A stretch of 35,882 nt of DNA from the NCBI GenBank assembly GCA_002786785.1, contig PCUD01000070.1, positions 1-35,882 on the forward strand. The letters run 5' to 3'. This stretch comes from Ignavibacteriales bacterium CG18_big_fil_WC_8_21_14_2_50_31_20. Lineage in GTDB: Bacteria; Bacteroidota; Ignavibacteria; Ignavibacteriales; Melioribacteraceae. Numbering within the stretch: position 1 is the first letter of the stretch; the number at the start of each line of letters is the position of its first letter. Below the pieces are notes generated by a model. That model saw only the letters and a list, made by a program, of their open reading frames with translations, ran no database searches and had not been told where the DNA came from. Both the position numbers and the translations under genes were made by a program. This document shows positions 1 through 35,812 of this stretch, one piece after another.

Positions 1-25
1 AACGAATTAAATCTTTTTTAAACAT
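1..25 (-). CDS. Start of a gene cut by the window edge, probable ABC-2 type permease
   Basis: Only eight codons are visible (MFKKDLIR), beginning at an ATG 14 nt after the stop codon of the ABC ATPase. Sequence alone cannot identify it. The close spacing and the usual arrangement of ATPase followed by membrane subunit suggest the permease of the same exporter, and a short charged N-terminus before a first membrane helix is typical of such subunits. Seen: start codon and position. Inferred: function. Confidence 0.4.
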
Positions 26-39
26 CTGGAATATATTGC

Positions 40-960
40 TCAATCTCTAATCCTCCTGCCAGTAAGATGCAAAAATACATCTTCTAATGAAGCACTGCTT
101 ACCTCAATTAAATTTGATGACAATCCAATTTTTTCAAAATATGTGTAAAGCTGTGAATCTTTTTGAAATTCATTATTTGGAATTATTTCATATTTGAAAT
201 CAAAAACATTAACTACTGCAATCTCACATAACTTATCATAAAGACTTTCTGTTTCAGCCGTTTTAATTATTTTTATAGTTTTCTTTCTATCCAAAGTATT
301 TAGTAAATCTGTTAATGAACCAGACGCGACTATTTGTCCGTTATCAATTATTGCCAATTTGTTGCAAAGTCTTTCGGCTTCTTCCATGTAGTGAGTTGTG
401 TATATAATTGTTATTCCCTGCTTATTTAATTGCTGCAACATTTCAAATATCGCGTTTCTTGATTGAGGATCAACTCCAACAGTTGGTTCATCACAAAGCA
501 AAACTTCTGGATTTTGCAATATTGAAACCGCAAGGTTTAACCGTCGTTTCATGCCACCCGAAAATTCTTTTACAGCACTATTTTTTCTATCTAAAAGTTG
601 AACAAGTTCCAAAGCTTTATCAATGTTTGTACTTAATTCCTTTTTGGAAAGTTTGAAAAGAGAGCCAAATATTTTAAGATTTTGGTAAGCTGTTAATTCT
701 TGATAAAGTGCAATCTCTTGCGGAACGTAGCCTATTTTCCTTTTAATTTGCTTATCACCAAATTTCACTAATTTATTATTATATGTAATTGTTCCACTAT
801 CTGCTTTTAGAAAGCCAATTAAATGGTTCATTAATGTTGTTTTTCCAGCTCCATTTGGACCAAGAAGTCCAAAAAATTCTCCCGAATTAATTTCAAGCGA
901 AATGTTATTTAACGCAGTAATTTTGCCAAAATTTTTTGTTAAGTTCTCTATTTTTAACAT
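40..960 (-). CDS. ABC transporter ATP-binding protein (CcmA/DrrA/NodI type)
   Basis: This is the nucleotide-binding subunit that powers an ABC-2 type exporter at the inner membrane. Over 306 residues it has every expected motif: Walker A GPNGAGKT (34-41), Q-loop Gln81, signature SGG (134-136), Walker B LLCDEP with catalytic Glu158, and H-loop His190. About 75 residues follow the ATPase core, as is common for the drug/antibiotic-type exporter ATPases. The ATG at 960 is preceded by AGGA at short spacing. A second gene starts 14 nt after its stop, presumably the permease. The substrate cannot be told from the sequence: the family exports drugs, lipids, polysaccharides or haem. Family assignment is secure, substrate unknown. 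Confidence 0.93.
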
Positions 961-1171
961 ATCTTCCTATTTGGTTTTATGTGCGATGCAAAATAAAACA
1001 ATGTTGTATATTTACCAAGTTGATAAAATTGTTTTCAAATTTGAATTTACTTATGCAAAAGACGTTACAAAATATATTTGGTTTCATGGAATTTTACTGC
1101 TGTTCAGGACAATTGAGGATGTCTCAAAATTAACAATATATTTAAATTTATCATTATTTTTAGACATCTTC

Positions 1172-1213
1172 ACACACCCCTTGATGCGGAAAAGCATCGC
1201 ATCTGGGGTGTGT
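1172..1213. repeat. Palindromic CACACCCC hairpin repeat
   Basis: ACACACCCC (1172-1180) pairs with GGGGTGTGT (1205-1213). Inside, GATGCG (1183-1188) pairs with CGCATC (1198-1203). A relative with the same order (ACACACCCC, then GATGCT/AGCATC) is found at 15411-15434 inside the outer miniature element, so this is a dispersed family and not a one-off terminator. Confidence 0.7.
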
Positions 1214-1288
1214 TCGCGTAATTTGAACAAATATTTACTGCCGTCCAGGAATGCTCCTCTACAATAAAACAATATTAATAAGTTATAA

Positions 1289-1324
1289 AAAACCGCCGAT
1301 GTTTCCAAAACATAGGAGGTTTAA
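1289..1324. repeat. CCTCC/AGG-type palindrome, terminator-like
   Basis: The stem is AAACC-g-CC-g-ATGTTT against AAACAT-a-GG-a-GGTTT, interrupted symmetrically, followed by a T-rich stretch. It is related in layout to the hairpins at 1714-1736, 7198-7232 and 24969-24993. Confidence 0.5.
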
Positions 1325-1403
1325 CTTTTTATTCCATCTTTCCTAAATATTCCAATCTCTTTTTCCATTATTCCATTTTTCCAACATTCCGATTGTTGAG
1401 TGA

Positions 1404-1432
1404 TTTCCATGCTATCGAGGAATACTCCCCTA
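1404..1432. repeat. Dispersed palindromic element TTTCCATGCTRTCGAGG, degenerate copy
   Basis: Shares TTTCCATGCT-TCGAGGAA with the copies at 1670-1708 and 2702-2742 but lacks the closing half of the palindrome, so it is probably a decayed or truncated copy. Confidence 0.6.
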
Positions 1433-1669
1433 AATATTTTTTTTTGTAAAAATAAATATTTATAAGTAAGTTGCTTTTCAAGAAATACTCTGAGTGGCAT
1501 TGTGGGAAGTTTGTTAATGGGTTTTATTTTAGCTGTGTTTCTCGGTGTTAAATTATTAAAAAATTTTTACATACAGTTTGTTAGGCGTAATTTATATGCA
1601 TAATAAAAATCTATCCATAAAAACAAAATCATTGTTTACTTCAAATAAAAATATAATTTATATAAAAAG

Positions 1670-23769: not shown

Positions 23770-24537
23770 TCAAAGAGGAATTCCAACATTGAGCTGCACA
23801 AATCCTTGCAATCCACCTTGTGAAATTAATTTACTATCTGCACCTTTATTTGGAATAGCTGACCCATCTAAGTCATCTGTCAAATCGTCAATCTCTATAA
23901 ATGAGTACATTCCGGTTGCTTCAATACTAATATAATCTTGAATTATATTAAAAATAAAACCAGACCCAACAGAGTAGGCCATTTTTACTTTATCTGACGT
24001 GAATATATTTTCAGAAAAAATTGAATTAGACAAAGGATTATCATTATAATTTTTTATTGTTAACTTAGGCGAGAAAAACTTGAGTTCTCCATCCAAAATT
24101 TTCCAATCGATAAAACCAATAAGAGGAATTCCAATGTCAAAACCTATTCCCCAATTATCCATTTCAAATTTTGCATCATAAATATAATTGAAGCCAAAAC
24201 CATCTGGACTTTTTTGGCTTTGCTCCTCAGAAAGGAACTGATAATATCCTTTTACAGTTACAAAGAATTTTGAATATTGCGCACGAACAAGATTAATTCC
24301 TACTTTAAAGCCTTTTCCTTCGTTGAAATTAAATGAATCATTCCTCAATGATGATGATGACCAAGGTGGATTAGCTAAATAATTCAAATGGCCATTTAAT
24401 CCATCAGCTTGATATTGCTGAATTGAATACCCGCCATAAATACCTGATAAGCCCAAGCAGCCAAATCCACATGATTGTGAACTAACTTTTGAAAAGGATA
24501 AAAGGGCAATTGATATTATCAAGTATTTAATTTTCAT
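23770..24537 (-). CDS. Secreted protein, probable outer-membrane beta-barrel
   Basis: About 255 residues. I start at the ATG at 24537, which opens directly into a signal peptide (MKIKYLIISIALLSFSKVSS, cleavage before Gln-Ser). The mature N-terminus has two close cysteines (SCGFGCLGLSGIYGGYSIQQ). The rest is a succession of amphipathic strands (FFVTVKGYYQFL, NWGIGFDIGIPLIGF, GFVQLNVGIPL) in the style of a barrel ending in the outer membrane. No named family was recognised. Same strand as the PqqD-like gene (52 bases upstream) and the aminopeptidase (130 bases downstream), so it may be part of a peptide-related cluster. Confidence 0.65.
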   Translation of the reverse strand: MKIKYLIISIALLSFSKVSSQSCGFGCLGLSGIYGGYSIQQYQADGLNGHLNYLANPPWSSSSLRNDSFNFNEGKGFKVGINLVRAQYSKFFVTVKGYYQFLSEEQSQKSPDGFGFNYIYDAKFEMDNWGIGFDIGIPLIGFIDWKILDGELKFFSPKLTIKNYNDNPLSNSIFSENIFTSDKVKMAYSVGSGFIFNIIQDYISIEATGMYSFIEIDDLTDDLDGSAIPNKGADSKLISQGGLQGFVQLNVGIPL

Positions 24538-24589
24538 TATTTTCACACTAAATTTTTCGTTTCTCATTTTAATATAATTAAATCATTTG

Positions 24590-24928
24590 TCACTTACTTG
24601 TTTTTTCAAATAACATAATTAGTTTGTTTGAATGCATTTGCTTCATAAATTGAACTACTCTATTTTCAGCTGGTTCAATCTGTTCACCAAATTTTTCATT
24701 AGACAATTTAATGATTTCTTTTACACTAATCGATGCATTAATTTTATCCCAAATAAAAGAGCCTATTTCATCTAAATCAATTTTATAGGGCTTATTAATT
24801 AATTTTCGAAAAAATATTTTTTCAATAAATGTTGGTTTCTTAAAATATAAAACCGTTACAATTCCATTATTTGTTTCACTTTCGCAAATTCTTTTTGGAA
24901 TTAGTTCCAAGTACTCTTCATCTTTCAT
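24590..24928 (-). CDS. PqqD family protein (stand-alone RRE-like)
   Basis: A small cytoplasmic protein of about 112 residues. PqqD-type domains are peptide-recognition (RRE) folds that present precursor peptides to radical SAM or other modifying enzymes. Recognisable is LDEIGSFIWDKI followed by the helical SVKEIIKLSNEKFGEQ and VVQFMKQMHSNKLI, with an N-terminal LIPKRICE strand. I start at ATG 24928 (MKDEEYLEL); an in-frame ATG 13 codons earlier starts inside a basic, non-conserved lead next to a terminator. No PQQ precursor, radical SAM enzyme or other maturase is visible in the window, so its partner is unknown. It sits between a dipeptide-type MFS carrier and an outer-membrane protein. Confidence 0.75.
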   Translation of the reverse strand: MKDEEYLELIPKRICESETNNGIVTVLYFKKPTFIEKIFFRKLINKPYKIDLDEIGSFIWDKINASISVKEIIKLSNEKFGEQIEPAENRVVQFMKQMHSNKLIMLFEKTSK

Positions 24929-24968
24929 TTTTCTTTTTCTTTGTAATGTAATTCTGTTATAATACAAC

Positions 24969-24993
24969 CTCCGAGATTTTAAAAATCTCGGAG
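24969..24993 (-). terminator. Terminator after the MFS gene (CCTCC/AGG family)
   Basis: CTCCGAGATTTT, one base, AAAATCTCGGAG: a perfect 12-bp stem just 20 bases after the MFS stop and about 40 bases before the PqqD-like start. The same palindrome family recurs at 1289-1324 and 7198-7232. Confidence 0.75.
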
Positions 24994-25013
24994 ATTTAAT
25001 ACTGTCTAAATAA

Positions 25014-26285
25014 CTATTTCATACCTATTTCCAAACCATGTCCATTAGGTCCTTTTTCTTCACGTCGCAATAAATATGCAAAAACAAATCCAATAATTCC
25101 TAATATTGAAAGTATCCACATTCCCATTGCATAACCACCAGGATTCTCGGCAGACGCACCAGAAATATCGTTTGACCAGCCGAGAAGATAATTGAAGGTA
25201 AATACTCCAATTTGTTGAATTAAAGTCATTATTGAGTATGCTGTACCTAATCTATTTTGCTTAACTAAATATGCAACTGAAGGCCACATAATAGCTGGAA
25301 TAAGAGAAAATGCAATACCTAGCATAATAATTGGTACATATAAAGTAATTCCAGAATAAACGAGCATTAAATAAACTGGTAAAATTAAAACTGATCCAAA
25401 CATCATCATTGATGCTCGTTTACCTATTTTATCCGCCAGAAGACCAAATAAAGGCGTAGCAATCATAGAAGCAAAAATTAAAGCACTATTCAACTGTCCT
25501 GCTAATTCTCTGCTTGCACCGTGAGCTTCCATATAAAATTTAATTGCAAATGTTCTAAATGGAAATACAGCAGAATAAAATGTAACACAAAGGATTACAA
25601 TGTACCAAAAGGATTTTCCAAAATTGAACATATCAGAAAAAACAAATTTATCAGTTTCACTAGCTTCTCCAAGTTCGTAATTTCTTTCTGCATAACTTTC
25701 CATAAACCAATAAATCAATCCACCAGCTATACAAGTTAAGCCAATAATAAAAGCAACATAAAGTGGGTCACTCCAATTATTATAAAAACTTTTTCCCCAT
25801 GTTGGAGACCAATCGGCAGCAAACGAACCAAGACGTGCAATTGTTAAGTTTATTCCAAAAGCAAAACCAAGCTCTTTTCCTTTAAACCACTTTGCAAGCG
25901 CGGTTGTAATTGCAACAATAAGTGGTTCAGCTCCAAATCCTAAAAGTAATCGTCCAGCCAGCATTACATAATATTCTGAACTGAGTGCTGTTACTAGTGC
26001 CGCAATAGAAGTAAGAGTTCCAAAAATCATGATTGAAGCTTTAACTCCAATTCTATCAATTATAGGACCACTAATAAGTAAAATAAAAACAGCGGCAAAA
26101 CTATAAATGGAGTATAATGAACCAATATCAACATCAGAAAAACCTAATGTAGTTTTTAACATATCAGCAATTGGTGCAATGCTATCATAAATATAATAAT
26201 TTCCAAACATTGCCAAACTAACTAAGACTAATACCGACCATCTATAAAATGGAGATGGTACTTTTTTAACAGCATCTTTAATCAT
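25014..26285 (-). CDS. MFS transporter, MFSD1-like (dipeptide carrier type)
   Basis: An inner-membrane carrier, 423 residues, 12 hydrophobic segments. The N-terminal FGNYYIYDSIAPIADML and DIGSLYSIYSFAAV, then the loop DRIGVKASIMIFG, resemble the family of animal lysosomal MFSD1, whose members move dipeptides. The A-like motif repeats in the second half (GLLADKIGKRASMMMFG). It starts 15 bases after the OPT gene, so the two are one operon. Neighbouring OPT transporter and aminopeptidase genes support peptides as substrate. Assigning MFSD1 rests on remembered motif similarity; another organic-anion or sugar MFS is possible. Confidence 0.8.
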   Translation of the reverse strand: MIKDAVKKVPSPFYRWSVLVLVSLAMFGNYYIYDSIAPIADMLKTTLGFSDVDIGSLYSIYSFAAVFILLISGPIIDRIGVKASIMIFGTLTSIAALVTALSSEYYVMLAGRLLLGFGAEPLIVAITTALAKWFKGKELGFAFGINLTIARLGSFAADWSPTWGKSFYNNWSDPLYVAFIIGLTCIAGGLIYWFMESYAERNYELGEASETDKFVFSDMFNFGKSFWYIVILCVTFYSAVFPFRTFAIKFYMEAHGASRELAGQLNSALIFASMIATPLFGLLADKIGKRASMMMFGSVLILPVYLMLVYSGITLYVPIIMLGIAFSLIPAIMWPSVAYLVKQNRLGTAYSIMTLIQQIGVFTFNYLLGWSNDISGASAENPGGYAMGMWILSILGIIGFVFAYLLRREEKGPNGHGLEIGMK

Positions 26286-26300
26286 ATTTTTCTCAATATT

Positions 26301-28253
26301 TTATATTTTTTCTTCTTTATTTTTTGACATTGCAAATGAAAATAGTACAATTGCTAATCCTAGAAAAAGAACCAACGAAATAAAATCACCAGTTAGTCCA
26401 AGGCTTTCACCAATTCCTGTGTTTAATTTATCAGCAACAGAAATTTCAACTCCATTAGCATTGGTTTCCCAAATCCAACCTTTTAACGATGCAATAACAA
26501 TTCCAGTTAACGCACCACCAGCAATTAATCCCGAACTTAATAATGCGCCTGGACCAATATCTGATTCACTTTCGTCAGATTTTTTAATTTTATCGACTAA
26601 CATTTTAACCAATCCACCAAGAAATATTGGACTACTGACCGATAGTGGTAAATAAGCACCAACGGCAAAAGGAAGCGAACGAACTCCGCTTAATTCCATA
26701 ACCGCAGCTATTCCCATCCCAACAAGAACCAATCCCCAAGGAAGATTTTGACTCAGTAATCCTTTAATAACTGTAGCCATTAACGTAGCTTGAGGTGCTG
26801 GAAGTTGATCGGAGCCAATTACCAAAATATCGTTTAATAAGATTATTGTAAATCCAATTACAAGAACAGAAGCAAAAACACCGATTAGCAAACCAAGCTG
26901 TTGTTTAATTGGAGTTGCTCCAACTATATAGCCTGTTTTTAAATCCTGTGATGTTGCTCCAGCATTAGCAGAAGCAATACAAACAATAGAGCCAACAACA
27001 AGAACTATTGGTTGATAAACATCCCCTGTCCAGCCAACGGCAACAAAAATAAGTGCAGTTGCCATAAGTGTTGCAATTGTCATTCCAGAAATAGGATTAG
27101 ATGATGAACCAATTAATCCAACAATTCTTGAAGAAACCGTTACGAAGAAAAATCCAAAAACGACAATCATAATTGATGAAAGTAAGTTAGTTGGTATTGA
27201 AGGAATTGCAACCATTAAAATTACAAGTAATACACTTCCTACTAATACGTATACTAAAGGAATATCTTTTTCAGTTCTAAGTTTTTCAATATGAGCATTT
27301 GCTTTATTGTCTCGCAAATCCTTGAAGGAGTCTTTGAATGCATTTATAATTGTTGGAAACGATCTAACTAAAGTAACAACGCCACCAAAAGTAACAGCCC
27401 CTGCGCCAATATAACGGATGTAATTACTCCAAATTTCAGCAGCAGACATTTCAGAAATCAATTTTGTTGCGGGAGCAAAAACCGTAGTCATTTGATCACC
27501 AAGTAAAGTAATTAATGGAATAAGTACCAACCATGAGAGCACACCACCAGCGACCATAATTCCAGCAATTTTAGGACCAATTATATAACCTACACCGAGT
27601 AATTCTGGAGTAATTTCTCCAGTTACAGTTCCATTTGGAAGTGCTGAATTTCTACTAAAAATATAACGAGGCACATCCTTCCAAAGACCGAAAAGTGACA
27701 TTAAAATTTTATAAGCAAAAGCAATTCCAAGACCGTAAAAAACTTTTTGTGCAAGTTTACCACCTTTTTCACCAGCAATAAGAACGTCAGCGCAAGCGGT
27801 TCCTTCTGGAAATGGTAGTTTGCCATGTTCTTTAACAATAATTGAACGGCGTAATGGAATCATAAAAAGAACGCCCAAAATTCCGCCAACAAGTGCTAAA
27901 ACAAAAATTTGGAAATATTGGAAATATTCTGCTCCACCTGGTAAAAATAGAAGTGCGGGAATTGTGAAAACTACACCAGCAGCAACAGATTCACCAGCAG
28001 AACCAATTGTTTGAACCATATTGTTTTCCAATATAGTACCTTTTCCAAATTTTTTAATAACTGAAATTGAAAGTACAGCAATAGGAATTGAAGCACTAAC
28101 TGTTAATCCAACTTTAAGTCCAAGATAGACAGTAGCTGCTCCAAAAATTATTCCAAATATTGCACCAAGAATTATTGCTTTTGGAGTAAACTCTGGAATA
28201 AAATCGTTTGCAGAAATGTAAGGTTTGAAGTTTACATTGTTATCTACGCTCAT
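26301..28253 (-). CDS. OPT family oligopeptide transporter
   Basis: A secondary transporter of the OPT superfamily, taking up small peptides (or metal-chelate compounds) with protons. 650 residues with about 15 hydrophobic segments. Diagnostic stretches: NNMVQTIGSAGESVAAGVVF (a family hallmark), KLPFPEGTACADVLIAGEKG, and near the C-terminus LPFAVGAYLPLSVSSPIFLGG. The start at 28253 has GAGG six bases before it. It is the first gene of an operon with the MFS carrier (15-base gap). Bacterial OPT members of this PET-like type are thought to move peptides; metal chelates cannot be excluded. Confidence 0.93.
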   Translation of the reverse strand: MSVDNNVNFKPYISANDFIPEFTPKAIILGAIFGIIFGAATVYLGLKVGLTVSASIPIAVLSISVIKKFGKGTILENNMVQTIGSAGESVAAGVVFTIPALLFLPGGAEYFQYFQIFVLALVGGILGVLFMIPLRRSIIVKEHGKLPFPEGTACADVLIAGEKGGKLAQKVFYGLGIAFAYKILMSLFGLWKDVPRYIFSRNSALPNGTVTGEITPELLGVGYIIGPKIAGIMVAGGVLSWLVLIPLITLLGDQMTTVFAPATKLISEMSAAEIWSNYIRYIGAGAVTFGGVVTLVRSFPTIINAFKDSFKDLRDNKANAHIEKLRTEKDIPLVYVLVGSVLLVILMVAIPSIPTNLLSSIMIVVFGFFFVTVSSRIVGLIGSSSNPISGMTIATLMATALIFVAVGWTGDVYQPIVLVVGSIVCIASANAGATSQDLKTGYIVGATPIKQQLGLLIGVFASVLVIGFTIILLNDILVIGSDQLPAPQATLMATVIKGLLSQNLPWGLVLVGMGIAAVMELSGVRSLPFAVGAYLPLSVSSPIFLGGLVKMLVDKIKKSDESESDIGPGALLSSGLIAGGALTGIVIASLKGWIWETNANGVEISVADKLNTGIGESLGLTGDFISLVLFLGLAIVLFSFAMSKNKEEKI

Positions 28254-28353: not shown

Positions 28354-31300
28354 CTAATAATGTACTTGCTTTTGTGCTTGAATAATTGAAAATTTTAATA
28401 TTTTTTGTCCCAAATCTGGAACGTTTATTATTGCAATATATAAACCAGACGCTATTTTATTTCCATATTCGTTTTTAAGATTCCAACGTAATGAAGCAGA
28501 CAAATCATTTTTGTCCAACAATTTAATTAATACACCGCTTAATGAATAAATTTTAATATTTACTTTTTCTGGAAGGTTTGAAAATGTAACAAATGGTTCA
28601 TCGTTTGCAAAACCAAAACTATTGCTCAGTGGATTGTATGCAAATAGCGGATTTGGATAAACATTTATTTTATCAAATTGAGCTTTCTTTTCATCTTTGG
28701 ATTTTTCTGTTTTGACTCTAAAATAATATTTATCATTTTCCGTTAAAACATGCGAAGGTGTAATTGTAAGCTTTCCAGTTGGATTAAAATCTATTTGATG
28801 AAATGGTGTTGTAAATCCCGCAATATACATTGCGTTAAACCACGGACTGCGTGCAATTGCTTTAATTGAATCTGTAATATTTGGGCCGCTAGCATTTAAC
28901 AAATATCCATTTGCAACATCTGCAACTCTGCTGGAAGTTCCCGTCTGAGCAACCAATTGTGAAATGTCTTCGCTATAAGGAGTGTTAAAAACTATCAAAT
29001 ATTCTTTTGTAGCGGTAATACTAGTACTTGGATTCCATTTTCCATCTGGAAACTTTAGTGTATCAAGTGCAAAACCATTTTCCAAAAAGCCAAGTTGCAT
29101 TTTTGTTTCATTTCCAAATTTATCAATTGCATAAGCCGATACTGGAATTTTTACAAATCCAGAATCTACATTATCTGTTCCTTTCCAAGGATATCTCACT
29201 AAAGTTCTAACGTATCGTAAAGCTTTGCTCGAATCGCCAAAACGCAATTCTACAGTTGATAAATCTTCAATTGAAATTGCCATTGATTGCTTTAACGATA
29301 TTGCAAAAACTTTTTGCGATTCTTTTATATCAGAACCAACATAAAAAACTCCAGTATTTCTATCATCAAATTCGGTAAACCACTTTTCAGTTCCAGAAAA
29401 CTCAGTTTTGACTCTTCCAGGTTCAATCCAATCTATATCAAGTACAAATCCGTCACGCATGTCGTTAACATTGCCCAAATAATCATTTTGCAGAAAAATA
29501 CGATTTAACTCTTTTCCGCTTGAAACATTTGTTAAAATAGCTTTCAAAGAATAAGTTTCTTCCCAAGGCAGACGCTGAAAGCCAACTTCGTATAGATCAT
29601 CTTTTACAGATTCTTGTTCATAAATTGAATAGGATATTTTTGCCTCCGAAATACCTTCTTTATGCTCGACTAAAACTCCTTTGAAATAGGAATCATTTTG
29701 GTTTTCGCCAATTACAATACCTAAATTTCCTTTATCATCATTTAAAATAACTGGCTCATTTTCCAAGTATCCGAAAATTACATTTCCTGGTATTAAATAT
29801 GACCTATCAATTCCATATTTCACCATTTTTGAATTATCGAAACCAAATGGAGTGATTGAGAAATAATATGGTTTCCCTTTTCTTAAAGATTCATTGTTAA
29901 ATGGATCCCAAGTAATTTTATGCAAATTTTTATTTTCTGACAATTCCACAACTGGAGTTTCGTCAGCAATAATTGTACTAATTGTTAAATCATTTTCATC
30001 TTCTATTAAAAGGTTTTTAATTGAGCTGTATTTGTAGGTAGCTATCAATTTTTTGTTAGGCTGATTATTAATTGTTTCGCTAGTTGAGGATGAGTTGAAC
30101 ATGTAAATATTATACCCTTGAAAATCAATATTATACCCATAACCGATATTTGAAAATCCACGTTGTGGAGATGTATCAAAAAGGATTTCTATTGAATTAT
30201 CATTAGTTATTGTTGTTGGGTTTACTTCTGGATAAGATTGTGGTTTATCAAAAAAGTTATATTTAATCTCTCTTCCATTAGTAATTGCTTCTTTCATTGC
30301 TTCAGTTGGCTCTTCGTTAACTCCAAGCACAAATGCAAAAATAATGTCGATTGGTTTTTTCTCTTCAAGATTAAATGTTCCAGACGTAATTAAAAAGGCT
30401 TTATCACTTCCACGAGTGTTTATCCAACCTTTTTGCATAATTATATTTCCAGAATATATAAACGCTTTGTTAATATTGTTGCAATCAATATTATTTACAA
30501 TTCCATCAAATGAATTACAAGGTTCTGGATTATTTTCACCCAACATTACTTTTCTTATCAAATCTGTCGAAAAAGGTTGATAAATTTGAGTTGGGAAATA
30601 GGCTTCTTTTGTATTAACAGTTGCAACAATATTGGCATTTTTTTTGCTATTAATTTTTTGTTGATTAAGGTTTTCACCTTCCAAAATGTATGCAGTTTGA
30701 CTCAAATTACTATTACTAATTGGTCCTTGCATCATTGTTGTAGTAAGAGCAATTTGATTTTCTTTGTTTGCAAAATCTCTGTATGGAGAATAAGCTAAAA
30801 TCATATTATTTGTTTCATCAGAAGCTAAAAAATCATTTCGATAATATCCCAAATCTGTATCAGTTGCCAAAGAAAAATTTACGTCATACAATATTGGTGA
30901 AACTTTTCCAGTATTTTCGATTGAATATTTAATAAAAACTACTTTTTCCAAATTTGGATTATTTGAGTAGCCCCAAACGGTTTGTCTAATGTTTATTCCA
31001 AGTGGTTCAGTACCTTCAATTCTTCTTTCATTGGTAGGAACTCCATCATTAAAAGCTGACCAAGCCATAACATCGCCATATTGTGCTGGTCTATCCTCGT
31101 TTTCATCCCAAATTCCATTTCCGTTTTTATCAATTGGTAAATAAACTCCATCTTTGTCGCCATCATAAAACTCTGCACCGAGTTTAACTGCATTTTTCCA
31201 ATTTTGCCATTCAGAACCAAAAGGAATTGAATTAACCGAATTTGTGTAAACTCCAAGCGAATCATCAGGATTTTCGACAGTACCTTTTACATAATCAAGA

Positions 31301-31602
31301 ATTTTGCGAGTAATTTCAACACCATTTGACCATAATTTATAATTTTGATCATATCCACTAAGAAAAAAACCAGAGGAATACAGAAACGACATAGTGTCAA
31401 TTATTCCAGCTTTTCTAGTTGGATTTTTTATTTGATTTCCAATCTGCCCAGCTTCATAAATTGGCAAAGTGATTCGGTTAAATTTTATTCCATCAGTTTC
31501 TGCGGTAGTTTTATTCTTCTCTTTATCATTTTTGGGGGATGCAACAATATTTGCAGAAAGCAAAACAATGAAAAGGAATATAATATGTAATTTATTAAGC
31601 AT
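28354..31602 (-). CDS. Large secreted protein with T9SS type A sorting domain
   Basis: About 1080 residues. I start at 31602 (MLNKLHIIFLFIVLL), which opens a signal peptide and lies 4 bases after the upstream stop; 19 more in-frame codons lie upstream but are inside that gene. The N-terminal part has an acidic calcium-type stretch (DGDKDGVYLPIDKNGNGIWD) and the motif RPAQYGDVMAWSAFNDG common in FCB surface proteins. The C-terminus has the sorting signal signature VYPNP, then a short beta domain with YSLSGVLIKLL and a LRWNLKNEYGNKIASGLYIA segment of the FlgD/T9SS A type. It should be exported through the type IX system and held at the cell surface. Function beyond that unknown. Last gene of the TonB operon. 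Confidence 0.85.
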   Translation of the reverse strand: MLNKLHIIFLFIVLLSANIVASPKNDKEKNKTTAETDGIKFNRITLPIYEAGQIGNQIKNPTRKAGIIDTMSFLYSSGFFLSGYDQNYKLWSNGVEITRKILDYVKGTVENPDDSLGVYTNSVNSIPFGSEWQNWKNAVKLGAEFYDGDKDGVYLPIDKNGNGIWDENEDRPAQYGDVMAWSAFNDGVPTNERRIEGTEPLGINIRQTVWGYSNNPNLEKVVFIKYSIENTGKVSPILYDVNFSLATDTDLGYYRNDFLASDETNNMILAYSPYRDFANKENQIALTTTMMQGPISNSNLSQTAYILEGENLNQQKINSKKNANIVATVNTKEAYFPTQIYQPFSTDLIRKVMLGENNPEPCNSFDGIVNNIDCNNINKAFIYSGNIIMQKGWINTRGSDKAFLITSGTFNLEEKKPIDIIFAFVLGVNEEPTEAMKEAITNGREIKYNFFDKPQSYPEVNPTTITNDNSIEILFDTSPQRGFSNIGYGYNIDFQGYNIYMFNSSSTSETINNQPNKKLIATYKYSSIKNLLIEDENDLTISTIIADETPVVELSENKNLHKITWDPFNNESLRKGKPYYFSITPFGFDNSKMVKYGIDRSYLIPGNVIFGYLENEPVILNDDKGNLGIVIGENQNDSYFKGVLVEHKEGISEAKISYSIYEQESVKDDLYEVGFQRLPWEETYSLKAILTNVSSGKELNRIFLQNDYLGNVNDMRDGFVLDIDWIEPGRVKTEFSGTEKWFTEFDDRNTGVFYVGSDIKESQKVFAISLKQSMAISIEDLSTVELRFGDSSKALRYVRTLVRYPWKGTDNVDSGFVKIPVSAYAIDKFGNETKMQLGFLENGFALDTLKFPDGKWNPSTSITATKEYLIVFNTPYSEDISQLVAQTGTSSRVADVANGYLLNASGPNITDSIKAIARSPWFNAMYIAGFTTPFHQIDFNPTGKLTITPSHVLTENDKYYFRVKTEKSKDEKKAQFDKINVYPNPLFAYNPLSNSFGFANDEPFVTFSNLPEKVNIKIYSLSGVLIKLLDKNDLSASLRWNLKNEYGNKIASGLYIAIINVPDLGQKILKFSIIQAQKQVHY

Positions 31603-31606
31603 AATT

Positions 31607-32671
31607 TTAATTGATAATTGGATAATTTCTAATATCTGATTCACGGAAACTTTGTTCAAATTTGTTGAGCAACAATTTGTTATAAATCATACTTACTGCA
31701 CCAAAATGAATTGATTTAGCATTATATCCCAACAAACGAAGATACGCAGTAATAAATAAACTTTTTTGTCCATTAAACGAATAGCTAAAAATAGTTTTAT
31801 CAATCGGGAGTGTCAACAAATTTGTAGACGCTTTAAAATCAGTTTGAGCTAAATATAAAACAGAACTTATCGGATGCCCACCCCAAGTACCTGGAGGAGA
31901 AATATCTTTGAAATATCTTTTTACGTCATATAAATCTCTATCATCGTAACACATAACAAAAGAATCGACAAAAATTGAATATCGTAGCGAGTAAGTTGCA
32001 TCAACTTGTTGAATTGTTGCAATTGCATTTAAATATTCATCTTCGGTAAGCATTTTCTTTATTCTATTTTTAGCAAACTGTTCGGTTGTTTTTGAATTAT
32101 CAATTTCAATACTTGGAATTTTATTTTCTTTTTTAGGTTTAGGATAGTATCCTGTTTCATACATAAACCACCATTCAGAATCACCACGTGCATTTATCCA
32201 CACATCCGCAAATTGAATATTCCATTGTGCCATTCCAAAATTAAGCGAAAATACATTTGTAAATCCATATAACCTCAGCAAAGAAGTTGCATAAGCTGCT
32301 TTTTGTCCGCTTTCGCTAATTATAATTATTTTTGCTTCCATATTTACATTGTTAAATTCCAATGAATCAATTAATTGTTCAATTCCAAAATTACGCGCAC
32401 CTTCAATGTGTCCGCTTTGGAATTGACTTGGTGTACGAATATCCATCAAAAGATAATCTGATAAATTACTATAAGCGTCATCAACTGAAATTATTGCTGG
32501 ATTTTTACTCGAATTTATATAATCGCCATGCGTTTCCAAATAAGAAATTAAATCGGCAGAAGTGTAGTATTTAATTTCAACTGGTTCATTAATATCTTCC
32601 ATGCAACCTGTAAAAATTAGCGAGGAAATTATTAAAGCAATTAGGGTAATATTTAATTTAATTATTTTCAA
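31607..32671 (-). CDS. Lipoprotein with two rhodanese-like domains, active-site Cys replaced by Ser
   Basis: 354 residues, lipobox IFTGC with lipidated Cys23. The first rhodanese-like domain (about 35-165) has LLMDIRTPSQFQSGHIEGARN and an active loop ISESGQK in which the usual catalytic Cys position is Ser119. The second (about 210-340) has the loop YSFNGQK with Ser298 where Cys is typical, followed by ITAYLRLLGYNAKSIHFGAVSMIY. A conserved WGGHPISSVLYL joins them. Sulfur transfer is therefore unlikely; a binding or structural role is more plausible. It starts with TTG overlapping the stop of the DUF4249 gene by 4 bases (TTGA), and no ATG exists before the lipobox. Translationally coupled within the TonB operon. 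Confidence 0.82.
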   Translation of the reverse strand: MKIIKLNITLIALIISSLIFTGCMEDINEPVEIKYYTSADLISYLETHGDYINSSKNPAIISVDDAYSNLSDYLLMDIRTPSQFQSGHIEGARNFGIEQLIDSLEFNNVNMEAKIIIISESGQKAAYATSLLRLYGFTNVFSLNFGMAQWNIQFADVWINARGDSEWWFMYETGYYPKPKKENKIPSIEIDNSKTTEQFAKNRIKKMLTEDEYLNAIATIQQVDATYSLRYSIFVDSFVMCYDDRDLYDVKRYFKDISPPGTWGGHPISSVLYLAQTDFKASTNLLTLPIDKTIFSYSFNGQKSLFITAYLRLLGYNAKSIHFGAVSMIYNKLLLNKFEQSFRESDIRNYPIIN

Positions 32672-33477
32672 TTTATTTGTATCGGAATTACCGTTTTAGT
32701 ATAGCCCATAAACAATCCAATGGTATTTTTACCAGAAACGTTCCAAAAAACCGAACCACCGCCTTCGCTAAAAATATTTTCAATCGGTTTATTGTTCTCG
32801 CGAGTTGAAAAATAGTCCTTATATGGTTCATCAAATGAATATAAAATTATTTCAACTTTATATTTTTCTGGATTTTCAAAATACACAATTGGAATATTTG
32901 AGGTTCTGACTTCGATAGTATTTAATGTATCTGCCAGTTTGCTTGTAACCTCGTAAAATATTGAATCAACATAACTTTCATAATTACTATCAAGTGATTT
33001 AATTGAATATTTTGCCGCATAAACTGATCTGGGATTTGGAACCACAACACATTTCAAATATTCACCTTCCAATTTTGCTTCTGCAATTATTGGCTCTTTT
33101 GGAATTGTAGTAACTGAATAAATTCTTTTGCCTTCAAATTCTGCAAACAATTCGTATTTAATTCCTTGAATTACATAAAGGTTATTAACTGGCGAATAAA
33201 TTCCATCTTTTTCATGTTTTAAAGTGAAAATTCCTTGTGTTTCTGACCAAATATATGCTGTAACTTCTTTTAATGCAACATCTTCACGAGTTAAATTTAA
33301 TTCAATAGGAAAACTTTTTGTGAACGATATTTTTACTGAAGATGAATCTCCTATTAACCTTCCACTAACCACATTAAATTCTTGAAATGGAATATCACTT
33401 TCAATTACATCAATTTGTTCACAATTTAAAAGCACAAAAAAAGGTAAAAACAACAGTATGTATTTTAGAATTTTCAT
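32668..33477 (-). CDS. DUF4249 family lipoprotein
   Basis: 269 residues, signal peptide with lipobox LLNC (Cys19). The mature protein is beta-rich: IESDIPFQEFNVVSGRLIGD at the start, the Ile/Pro-rich TTIPKEPII region, and a VFWNVSGKN motif near the end. DUF4249 proteins are outer-membrane-associated lipoproteins encoded next to TonB receptors in Bacteroidota, probably surface partners of the receptor. The gene begins 1 base after the receptor stop and overlaps the next gene by 4 bases, so translation is coupled. Function of the family is not established. Confidence 0.82.
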   Translation of the reverse strand: MKILKYILLFLPFFVLLNCEQIDVIESDIPFQEFNVVSGRLIGDSSSVKISFTKSFPIELNLTREDVALKEVTAYIWSETQGIFTLKHEKDGIYSPVNNLYVIQGIKYELFAEFEGKRIYSVTTIPKEPIIAEAKLEGEYLKCVVVPNPRSVYAAKYSIKSLDSNYESYVDSIFYEVTSKLADTLNTIEVRTSNIPIVYFENPEKYKVEIILYSFDEPYKDYFSTRENNKPIENIFSEGGGSVFWNVSGKNTIGLFMGYTKTVIPIQIN

Positions 33478-33478
33478 A

Positions 33479-35812
33479 TTAAAATTTTACCGCAAATCCA
33501 AAAGTTGGGAAAAATGGCATTAATGTAATTTGATTTAGTTTTGGTGTACTTGTGTAATCAAATTCATTTTTTTTAGCATCAAAATCGTAAGCAATATATT
33601 GAGCAAAAGCGTTACTTTGATTATATAAATTGTAAATATTTATAAAAAAATCTGTTGGAAGTGAAAACATTGTTGTAGAATATTTAATATTTAAATCCAT
33701 TTTGTGATAATCGGGCAAATTATACTCATTTCGTGAGGAATAATTCACATTTTGGTTTTCAATTCCATCAATTTCACTATTTGTAAAATAATATTTGCCA
33801 GTTGGCATTGTCATTCCAGAACCAGTTGAGTAGCTCCAAGTTATTCCAAGACTAAGATTTTTCATAATTTCGTATGTCATAACAAATGAAATATCGTGTA
33901 ATCTGTCATATTGTGGAGGAAAAATTTTTCCAGCATTTAACTCGGTAAATAACCTTTTTGTCCACGAAATAGTGTAACCCAGCCAACCAGAAATTTTTCC
34001 AGCACGCTTATTTAAGAAAAATTCAACTCCGTAAGCTTCGCCAATTCCTTTTGTAAAATTATTTTCAATTGGATTTTTAACTGAATAATATGGCATATCT
34101 CTAAATTCGTAAATGTTCTCAAAATCCTTATAATAAGCTTCAACCGAAAATAAATAGATTTTTTTATCAAAATAAATATCAAAACCCGCTACACTTTGTC
34201 GCGAAAAAGAAGGTTTAATCTTACCAGTTGAAGGATACCACAAATCGGTTGGCATGCGAATATCATTTCGCAAAATTAAATGCAAAAATTGATGTGCTTC
34301 TGCGTAAGCGCCTTTTAGCAAAAAATTATCAGAAAAAGCGATTGACATTGAAAGCCGTGGTTCAAATTTAACATCGCTCAAATTGGAAAATTTGTAAATT
34401 CTAACACCAAAGTTTGTATTTAAAAATCCAAAAGGTTGCCATTGACTTTGCAAAAAATAAGCTATTTCAAATGAATTGTGGTTTTCAAAATGGTCTGGCG
34501 ATGTTTCTAAAACTGAGTGATAAACAACCCAATTTACTAATTGATATTTATGAAAAATAAATTCGTACCCACTTTTAATTGTAAATTCATCCGAAATGGT
34601 TAAATCGACATCTTGCTTTACCGATATATCTTGTAAATCAGATGAAGAGAAATAATCAGATTCGATGCTATTTGTAAGATCATTTAATGACGAAGTAAAC
34701 TTATATTTAATGAACGAAAGGTTAGAACGAAGAATATATGAATTCTCATTCATTGTTAACCAATTTGCGCTTAAATTCATATTTGACCAATTTGTTTTAT
34801 AATCAAAGCCCAAATTTACTGGCGGACTGTAAATATTATCTTTGTTATACATAAAATTTATGGCAATATTCTGCTCTTTCGAAAATTTGTAATTTAATTT
34901 TGTGCTCATATCAAAAAAATTGTTTCTCGGTGTTACACTTTCCTTTTGGAATATTTCTTGAAGTTGGTCGTAATACATAATTCTTGATGAAACTATGTAA
35001 GTAAGCTTAGCCGTAATTGGACCTTCCAAAGTTGCATGAGACATAATAGTTCCAATTCCAATAACGCCTTTTTCACGCTCATTTGTTCCTTCGCGGAGTT
35101 TAACATCCAAAACGCTGGAAAGTCTTCCACCATATTCTGCTGGAAATGCACCTTTTATTAATTTTACATCATTTAAAGCATAAGTGTTAAAAGTGCTTGC
35201 AATATTTCCAAGATGCGAAGGATTGTAAAGCATTGTTCCATCAACTAAAGTTAAATTTTGGTCGGGCGAACCGCCGCGGACGTATATTCCGCTTGACATT
35301 TCGGAAGCAACTTTTACTCCAGGCAATAATTGTAGTGACTTAAAAACATCAATTTCGCCACTTAAAGATGGCAGCATATTTAGCATTTTAGGAGAAATAT
35401 CAACAGCACTTATAATTTCTTCAGTCTCTTTTGTATCGCGGACAATAACTTCTTCAATTTGAACAGCAGCGGAAGTTAAAAAAACATTTAATTCGAGTGC
35501 TCCACTGGTTTTGGATATATCAACATACTCAACTTTTTCTTTATAACCCATATTTCTAAAAGTGACTTTATATTTCCCTATAGGCAATCTTGAAGTAACA
35601 AATTGCCCATCCAAACCAGTTGCTGCACCTGTTTGGAATAAATCATTAAATTGGACATCTTTAGTAATTATTATATTTGCGCCTATAATTCCATTTTTAG
35701 TTTCGGAATCAAATACATACCCAGTTATTTTCATTCCACCATTTTGTGAATAGATTATTGTGGCAAAAAATATAGATACAAAAAAAGAAATTATTTTTAT
35801 TTTGTTGGACAA
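33479..35812 (-). CDS. TonB-dependent outer-membrane receptor with CarboxypepD-regulatory-like domain
   Basis: An energised outer-membrane channel for large or scarce substrates. 777 residues: signal peptide (1-22, ...ATIIYSQ), N-terminal carboxypeptidase-regulatory-like domain (about 27-112, ITGYVFDSETKNGIIGANI), plug (about 120-235, GIYVRGGSPDQNLTLVDG and YGGRLSSVLDVK), then a 22-strand-type barrel ending in Phe (FPTFGFAVKF). No SusD partner is present; the partner is DUF4249. It begins at TTG 35812; no ATG is available in frame upstream. A TATCTTTG box at 35844-35851 is its likely promoter. First gene of a four-gene operon. Substrate unknown. Confidence 0.9.
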   Translation of the reverse strand: MSNKIKIISFFVSIFFATIIYSQNGGMKITGYVFDSETKNGIIGANIIITKDVQFNDLFQTGAATGLDGQFVTSRLPIGKYKVTFRNMGYKEKVEYVDISKTSGALELNVFLTSAAVQIEEVIVRDTKETEEIISAVDISPKMLNMLPSLSGEIDVFKSLQLLPGVKVASEMSSGIYVRGGSPDQNLTLVDGTMLYNPSHLGNIASTFNTYALNDVKLIKGAFPAEYGGRLSSVLDVKLREGTNEREKGVIGIGTIMSHATLEGPITAKLTYIVSSRIMYYDQLQEIFQKESVTPRNNFFDMSTKLNYKFSKEQNIAINFMYNKDNIYSPPVNLGFDYKTNWSNMNLSANWLTMNENSYILRSNLSFIKYKFTSSLNDLTNSIESDYFSSSDLQDISVKQDVDLTISDEFTIKSGYEFIFHKYQLVNWVVYHSVLETSPDHFENHNSFEIAYFLQSQWQPFGFLNTNFGVRIYKFSNLSDVKFEPRLSMSIAFSDNFLLKGAYAEAHQFLHLILRNDIRMPTDLWYPSTGKIKPSFSRQSVAGFDIYFDKKIYLFSVEAYYKDFENIYEFRDMPYYSVKNPIENNFTKGIGEAYGVEFFLNKRAGKISGWLGYTISWTKRLFTELNAGKIFPPQYDRLHDISFVMTYEIMKNLSLGITWSYSTGSGMTMPTGKYYFTNSEIDGIENQNVNYSSRNEYNLPDYHKMDLNIKYSTTMFSLPTDFFINIYNLYNQSNAFAQYIAYDFDAKKNEFDYTSTPKLNQITLMPFFPTFGFAVKF

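Follow-up and report, generated by a model that had tools for sequence, protein, structure and literature searches.

A tandem rhodanese-fold lipoprotein without canonical loop cysteines in a conserved TonB receptor–DUF4249-type lipoprotein module

The 35,882-nucleotide contig PCUD01000070.1 (hereafter the window, meaning this whole stretch of DNA) from Ignavibacteriales bacterium CG18_big_fil_WC_8_21_14_2_50_31_20 (assembly GCA_002786785.1) carries a real three-gene module encoding a TonB-dependent receptor, a DUF4249-type lipoprotein and a lipoprotein built from two rhodanese folds. The gene order does not reflect chance, as it recurs, with no gap exceeding 26 bases, in 36 genomes of five families among the loci fetched from related genomes. 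Copies of the rhodanese lipoprotein that are linked to the receptor lack the canonical pair of loop cysteines, and nearly all of them carry instead a cysteine found in none of the other copies compared. We think it somewhat better than an even prospect that the three proteins constitute an outer-membrane uptake complex, in which a receptor and its lid have captured the rhodanese lipoprotein as an accessory ligand-capture subunit, not as a canonical sulfurtransferase. This interpretation starts from four features read in the sequences, namely the gene order, the membership of the protein families, the swap of residues and the single branch that each of two phylogenetic trees assigns to the module.

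All three genes lie on the minus strand of the window. The receptor comes first (33479–35812) and matches both the CarbopepD_reg_2 (PF13715, E 1.5e-13) and the Plug (PF07715, E 1.1e-8) families of Pfam. It is followed by the DUF4249-type lipoprotein (32668–33477), a probable receptor lid considering its relatives' PF14054 matches, its lipobox cysteine and its place in the gene order, and then by the tandem rhodanese-fold lipoprotein (31607–32671; PF00581, E 3.5e-16), which bears its lipobox cysteine at C23 followed by MED, serines at S119 and S298, and the novel C241, encoded within codons 240–242 (Met-Cys-Tyr) at 31946–31954. Next on the same strand (28354–31602) lies the gene of a large secreted protein, whose C terminus is weakly sorting-like; the gene starts with an ATG at 31602, where the open reading frame (ORF) listing instead uses an earlier TTG at 31659. 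The tight coupling of these four genes described in a first-pass annotation of the window is borne out, the successive gaps being 1, −4 (a TTGA overlap) and 4 bases. The DUF4249 label proposed at the same time is valid at the family level, because PF14054 is matched (best E 7.2e-11) by six of the 12 relatives aligned with the window lipoprotein, but it does not extend to a direct match, as the window protein itself has zero Pfam matches up to E 0.1; the two PF14054 places in the window's genome are genes other than the module lipoprotein. The lipobox cysteine is present in all 36 aligned DUF4249-type lipoproteins. No SusD family occurs among the Pfam matches of the window genes or of the lipoprotein's relatives, and profile searches against the PDB returned nothing credible for the lipoprotein (best E 0.064) and, for the receptor, a single short match to an unrelated protein (E 0.00076).

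To what extent is this arrangement conserved? Searches with the rhodanese lipoprotein gave matches in 44 of 79 genomes of the family (E ≤ 1e-5, weaker partial rhodanese matches counted), 72 of 164 of the order (1e-25) and, in samples of the wider groups, 87 of 391 of the class (1e-40) and 30 of 395 of the phylum (1e-30). A total of 134 members were labelled in the fetched loci, to which nine class-level places were added at a later stage; loci L077 and L078 had none above threshold, and the copies in L146, L155 and L179 were recovered from under overlapping longer ORFs. The gene directly upstream, when other rhodanese copies and small unlabelled same-strand ORFs are skipped, is a DUF4249-type lipoprotein for 46 members and a multihaem cytochrome for 80, the remainder lying at a contig edge (five) or elsewhere (three). 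Seen from the DUF4249-type lipoprotein, each of the 37 in the fetched loci has a rhodanese gene after it, and 36 have a receptor gene before it, with gaps across the 37 modules ranging from −73 to 26 and from −50 to 21 bases. Adjacent rhodanese genes number one in 32 modules, two in four and five in one; locus L041 (7543–13158) places five tandem rhodanese lipoprotein genes behind a single receptor–lipoprotein pair. Because the fetched loci had been picked by rhodanese matches, a search based on the lipoprotein was added. Across the 164 genomes of the order it returned 54 places, comprising 32 strong matches (E ≤ 1.6e-65, the next being 2.4e-50), three fragments ending at contig edges and 19 weaker ones. 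By comparison of coordinates by eye, 31 of the strong matches adjoin a rhodanese match and one sits at a contig edge; among the 17 weaker places inspected (G161 C46 and G163 C33 being left out), no rhodanese gene is visible beside any of them, and 15 have a receptor upstream.

The third protein of the module is recognizably a double rhodanese. The Pfam domain spans residues 63–151 and is found in all 18 aligned copies, including the window's, while residues 218–335 form a second rhodanese fold as judged by a profile match between the two domains (probability 99.37, E 3.4e-21). In that alignment S119 stands opposite S298 and D77 opposite C241, and together with the loop sequences themselves (IISESGQKA and SYSFNGQKS) it confirms the first-pass observation that serine fills both rhodanese cysteine positions. 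Profile search of the PDB retrieved ordinary rhodanese-domain proteins and Cdc25 phosphatases. Much of the loop and its frame is retained across the 46 receptor-linked copies, with G122, D77 and R79 in all, Y127 in 44 and Q123 in 42.

The state of the loop cysteines follows the genomic context. Among the 45 receptor-linked copies of at least 200 amino acids (one shorter ORF being dropped), loop 1 carries Ser in 42, Cys in two and Gly in one, and loop 2 carries Ser in 27, Asp in 11, Cys in two, Gly in two, Glu in one and Thr in one, with the position missing in one; cysteine occupies both loops in none of the 45 and one loop in four. Cytochrome-linked copies, by contrast, have cysteine in both loops in 91 of 91 cases, made up of the initial 80 and 11 that were added later or had been masked by ORFs. 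These 11 also follow a cytochrome of the same family (in one case a short ORF with seven haem motifs), and the upstream cytochrome has 10 CxxCH motifs in 76 of 79 cases. It had been anticipated that the proposal of a non-enzymatic protein would fail if homologues mostly kept cysteine; cysteine is kept in both loops by the cytochrome-linked copies and by none of the receptor-linked ones, and the matter is resolved by the dependence of the cysteine state on context. Two copies outside both contexts, in L139 (Cys/Asp) and L151 (Gly/Asp), fall in the tree among the cytochrome-linked copies yet deviate from them. The L151 copy (1–1587, minus strand) is about 520 amino acids long, with an extra N-terminal part and a rhodanese region without both loop cysteines, and its genome, G224, also has a cytochrome-linked Cys/Cys copy. 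Both kinds co-occur in 11 of the 106 genomes with fetched copies.

Beyond the loops, a comparison of 46 receptor-linked with 80 cytochrome-linked copies singles out three positions that are at least 70% conserved within each kind and differ between them: 119 (Ser versus Cys), 241 (Cys versus Asn) and 286 (Gln versus Lys), the window protein having Leu at the last. The cysteine at 241, absent from the first-pass annotation and conserved nonetheless, occurs in 43 of the 46 receptor-linked copies (the 46 being made up of 44 and a further two, at contig edges, assigned by tree) and in none of 83 others, where Asn (77), Ala (4) or Ser (2) stands instead; ORFs shorter than 290 or of at least 450 amino acids are excluded from this count. 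It typically sits within [FY]-[VIL]-x-C-Y-[GDA] and, according to the profile alignment, takes the place of the Asp of the DxR motif in the second domain, a residue that we take to be close to the loop in rhodanese structures. The next most frequent cysteine outside the lipobox occurs in only 14 of 46 copies, and 21 of 46 have no cysteine beyond positions 23, 119, 241 and 298. A disulfide between C241 and a partner protein was considered and set aside, because the receptor and the DUF4249-type lipoprotein have zero conserved cysteines besides the lipobox. The conservation of C241 also narrows the first-pass statement that the protein is not a sulfurtransferase: the canonical loop cysteines are gone, and what is excluded is sulfur transfer by the canonical loop.

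Phylogenetic trees place the change on a single branch. These were built by a quick method with Shimodaira–Hasegawa-like approximate likelihood ratio (SH-aLRT) support only, from ORFs of at least 290 amino acids. In the receptor tree, one branch (support 98, one change) divides the receptors into 32 that have a rhodanese neighbour (L176 among them, assigned from contig edges) and 15 that have none. In a rhodanese tree that includes relatives from the phylum level, a branch with support 100 sets the receptor-linked copies apart from the rest; this tree includes a random draw of 36 of the 80 cytochrome-linked copies, and its four outgroup rows do not fall on one side of a branch. A larger tree of 130 rows counts three changes for the receptor-linked and five for the cytochrome-linked state because six unassigned rows are interspersed, of which four group with the cytochrome-linked copies and the other two with the receptor-linked ones.

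The fourth gene, in contrast to the first three, does not belong to the conserved module, as a relative of the secreted protein is directly next in only three of 34 judgeable modules, all from the window's genus; in the other 3 of the 37 the contig ends before a next gene can be judged. Where the relative is next the gap is 4–5 bases to an ATG start; an opposite-strand gene follows 16 of the 34 modules and other genes follow the remainder. Unrelated proteins with sorting-like C termini come after the module in L039 (at 280 bases; TIGR04183, E 1.8e-11) and L080 (at 187 bases). The description of the secreted protein as cargo of the type IX secretion system (T9SS) is a weak one: its C terminus matches three TIGR04183 places of its own genome (C20, C124 and C131), but its own TIGR04183 score is below the cut-off (E 0.56), leaving it outside the genome's 134 matches to this family. 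A relative in G002 reaches E 0.00048, at 20 bits against a cut-off of 23. The only Pfam match of the window protein is a weak one to FlgD_ig, and 15 further places in its genome match the protein. That genome (G000, 3.8 Mb) is very rich in T9SS-type secreted proteins, and with 134 such domains an occasional sorting-domain neighbour is unsurprising.

Several observations bear on where the rhodanese lipoprotein resides. A recognised lipobox is present in 25 of the 46 receptor-linked copies, and 24 of these 25 continue with C-x-[KEDQ]-[DE], a pattern found in four of 39 other lipobox ORFs from the same loci. In the window, the region reads CMEDINE, which resembles but does not equal the published optimum of the Bacteroidota export signal, C-X-K-(D/E)2-X, with a lysine and then two acids (PMC5080379). 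This likeness of the acidic residues after the lipobox suggests that the protein may be displayed on the cell surface.

How might such a module work? In the interpretation we favour, an ancestral rhodanese lipoprotein would have been captured once by one receptor–lid pair and would then have stopped canonical catalysis, losing its loop cysteines, mostly to Ser/Ser or to Ser plus Asp, while much of the loop frame was kept and one new cysteine arose where the DxR motif of the second domain would have its Asp. The surface lipoprotein of two rhodanese folds may thereby bind a ligand in its pockets and pass it to the receptor and lid. The formation of a complex is suggested by the gene order and by the proposed Bacteroides pair discussed below, and ligand capture by the preserved frame of the pockets. 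A number of points weigh against this interpretation. The putative accessory role is argued from gene order and analogy, and the gene after the triad varies, so that it gives no pointer to a ligand; sampled wider neighbours of the modules (UvrA-like, PurL-like, glycosyltransferase-like and others, from reading their sequences) give none either. The signal-like motif does not single out the receptor-linked proteins, since 31 of 37 cytochrome-linked rhodaneses share it, and among the 27 lid-type lipoproteins in which a lipobox is recognised it occurs in only three, although 74% of these 27 have an acid at +2. Conservation is lower in loop 2 than in loop 1, two copies retain a cysteine in loop 1 and two in loop 2, and C241 is missing from three copies, namely both of the second G002 module and one of five G044 tandems. 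Finally, the AlphaFold2 model of the protein, computed from the window protein and one 95%-identical relative, is unusable, with a predicted local distance difference test (pLDDT) score of 34.4.

The new cysteine invites a more chemical account. One tentative version, with perhaps a modest prospect of being right, retains the single capture and has the sulfur site rewired, the loop cysteines being removed and the DxR cysteine gained, so that the third subunit would capture a sulfur, selenium or metal ligand via the relocated thiol. Its stricter form, which we consider unlikely and rank below that version, casts C241 as the reactive thiol of the second pocket, covalently binding or processing such a ligand before import. 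The standing of C241 as the sole widely conserved cysteine outside the lipobox, its absence from the other copies, the lack of a conserved pairing cysteine in the receptor and lipoprotein, its presumed nearness to the loop and the apparently sulfur-related genes near the copies of L178 (described below) all speak for relocated chemistry. On the other hand, a buried cysteine could be purely structural, the proximity of residue 241 to the loop is presumed, and three copies do without C241.

Alternatively, the rhodanese folds may bind no small ligand and have a purely structural or docking role within the receptor complex, an idea that we place lower again. The loss of the catalytic residues agrees with it, and the adjacent tandem copies in at least five of 37 modules (four with two, one with five) might fit accessory surface subunits; yet the kept frame of G122, Q123 and Y127, together with a loop-1 serine in 42 of 45 copies, is more conserved than a mere scaffold needs. 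The first-pass annotation had instead envisaged a four-gene surface system, in which receptor and lipoproteins serve or display the secreted protein. The coupled unit of receptor and two lipoproteins survives from that proposal, and the secreted protein does start 4 bases after the rhodanese gene, with relatives at 4–5 bases in two more genomes of the genus. However, another gene or an opposite-strand gene is next in 31 of 34 judgeable modules, and the 15 further matches of the protein in its own genome likewise argue against such a system. Membership of the secreted protein in a functional complex is therefore very improbable. Least credible of all is that the receptor-linked rhodaneses are degenerating, functionless enzymes: both catalytic cysteines are lost, but the frames are open and full length in five families, the loop-1 replacement is near-uniformly serine, and a conserved cysteine has been gained. 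Capture of the lipoprotein as an accessory ligand-capture subunit continues to be the reading we prefer.

Some neighbourhoods deserve mention in their own right. A conserved cluster beside a Cys/Cys rhodanese lipoprotein, seen in L068 (1929–10523) and similarly in L043, L054 and L064, comprises the decahaem cytochrome (29 loci), a small protein after it (28) and a sigma-54 regulator (24), with a cytochrome c554-like protein, a porin-like protein and further multihaem cytochromes in 15–16 loci and haem-biosynthesis-like genes next in about 12; the arrangement resembles an Ext-type conduit for extracellular electron transfer. The phylum-level loci L177 and L178 have paired copies beside a porin-like protein, with cysteine in seven of eight loops on reading of the sequences, the exception being a Glu in one second loop of L178. 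In L178 (7662–16837) the pair lies near YeeE/YedE-, Psr/NrfD-, Fe-S- and molybdopterin oxidoreductase-like proteins, again as read from their sequences, a possible sulfur-respiration cluster; along with ExtH of Geobacter, this neighbourhood hints at a sulfur-related ancestry of the rhodanese lipoproteins. Within the window, an OPT transporter, an MFS transporter, a PqqD-domain protein and a protein without family matches follow in a row (23770–28253, minus strand). The OPT gene is next in two of the family-level loci, to which that search was limited, both from the window's genus, and no radical-SAM family was matched by the 18 window proteins scanned. A BRO-N domain protein is encoded at 1761–2594 on the plus strand; this family is frequent in phages and mobile elements.

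What would the module mean if the favoured reading is right? Among the sampled copies, context predicts the state of an active site, which would make the module a case, resting on one branch per tree, of an enzyme turned into an apparent transporter part. The presence of a cysteine-retaining sister family in some of the same genomes allows direct comparison, DUF4249-type receptors would gain a third partner, and C241 offers a testable residue. Should the relocated-thiol account be true instead, it would describe a kind of uptake receptor with a thiol-based third subunit for a sulfur, selenium or metal ligand.

Among the papers retrieved on a rhodanese together with a TonB receptor, DUF4249 or lid proteins, from a literature with few subscription papers and no preprints, no title or abstract opening describes this module. 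The nearest relatives are the cytochrome-linked paralogues (e.g., G000 C47), which belong to the same two-domain lipoprotein family and occupy the opposite side of one tree branch, but have cysteine in both loops, mostly Asn at 241, and a multihaem cytochrome upstream instead of the receptor pair. They recall ExtH, a rhodanese-family lipoprotein of the outer surface encoded in the outer-membrane gene cluster extHIJKL of Geobacter sulfurreducens, as described in two papers (PMC6148476, PMC5877670). With its porin and cytochromes, extHIJKL resembles the setting of these paralogues, which cytochromes do adjoin, rather than the window module, ExtH being likened here by description only: the eight annotated window genes include no porin or multihaem cytochrome, and L035 has no cytochrome or porin cluster (two large ORFs upstream of its receptor lying outside the annotation). 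The BtuB–BtuG and SusCD utilisomes also bring further surface lipoproteins to a TonB receptor (PMC10404256, PMC7618045), but the window lipoprotein has no SusD match, and the word “rhodanese” occurs zero times in the available text of either paper. Also close to the module is the Bacteroides receptor BT2172, proposed to work with the DUF4249 protein BT2173 in a paper that also cites a 2023 preprint, “Many Families of Lids” (PMC11003636). As in the window, a receptor gene there stands beside that of a DUF4249-type lipoprotein; the lipoprotein of the window has diverged too far to match PF14054 directly, and here one receptor clade adds to the pair a fixed third member, the rhodanese-fold lipoprotein.

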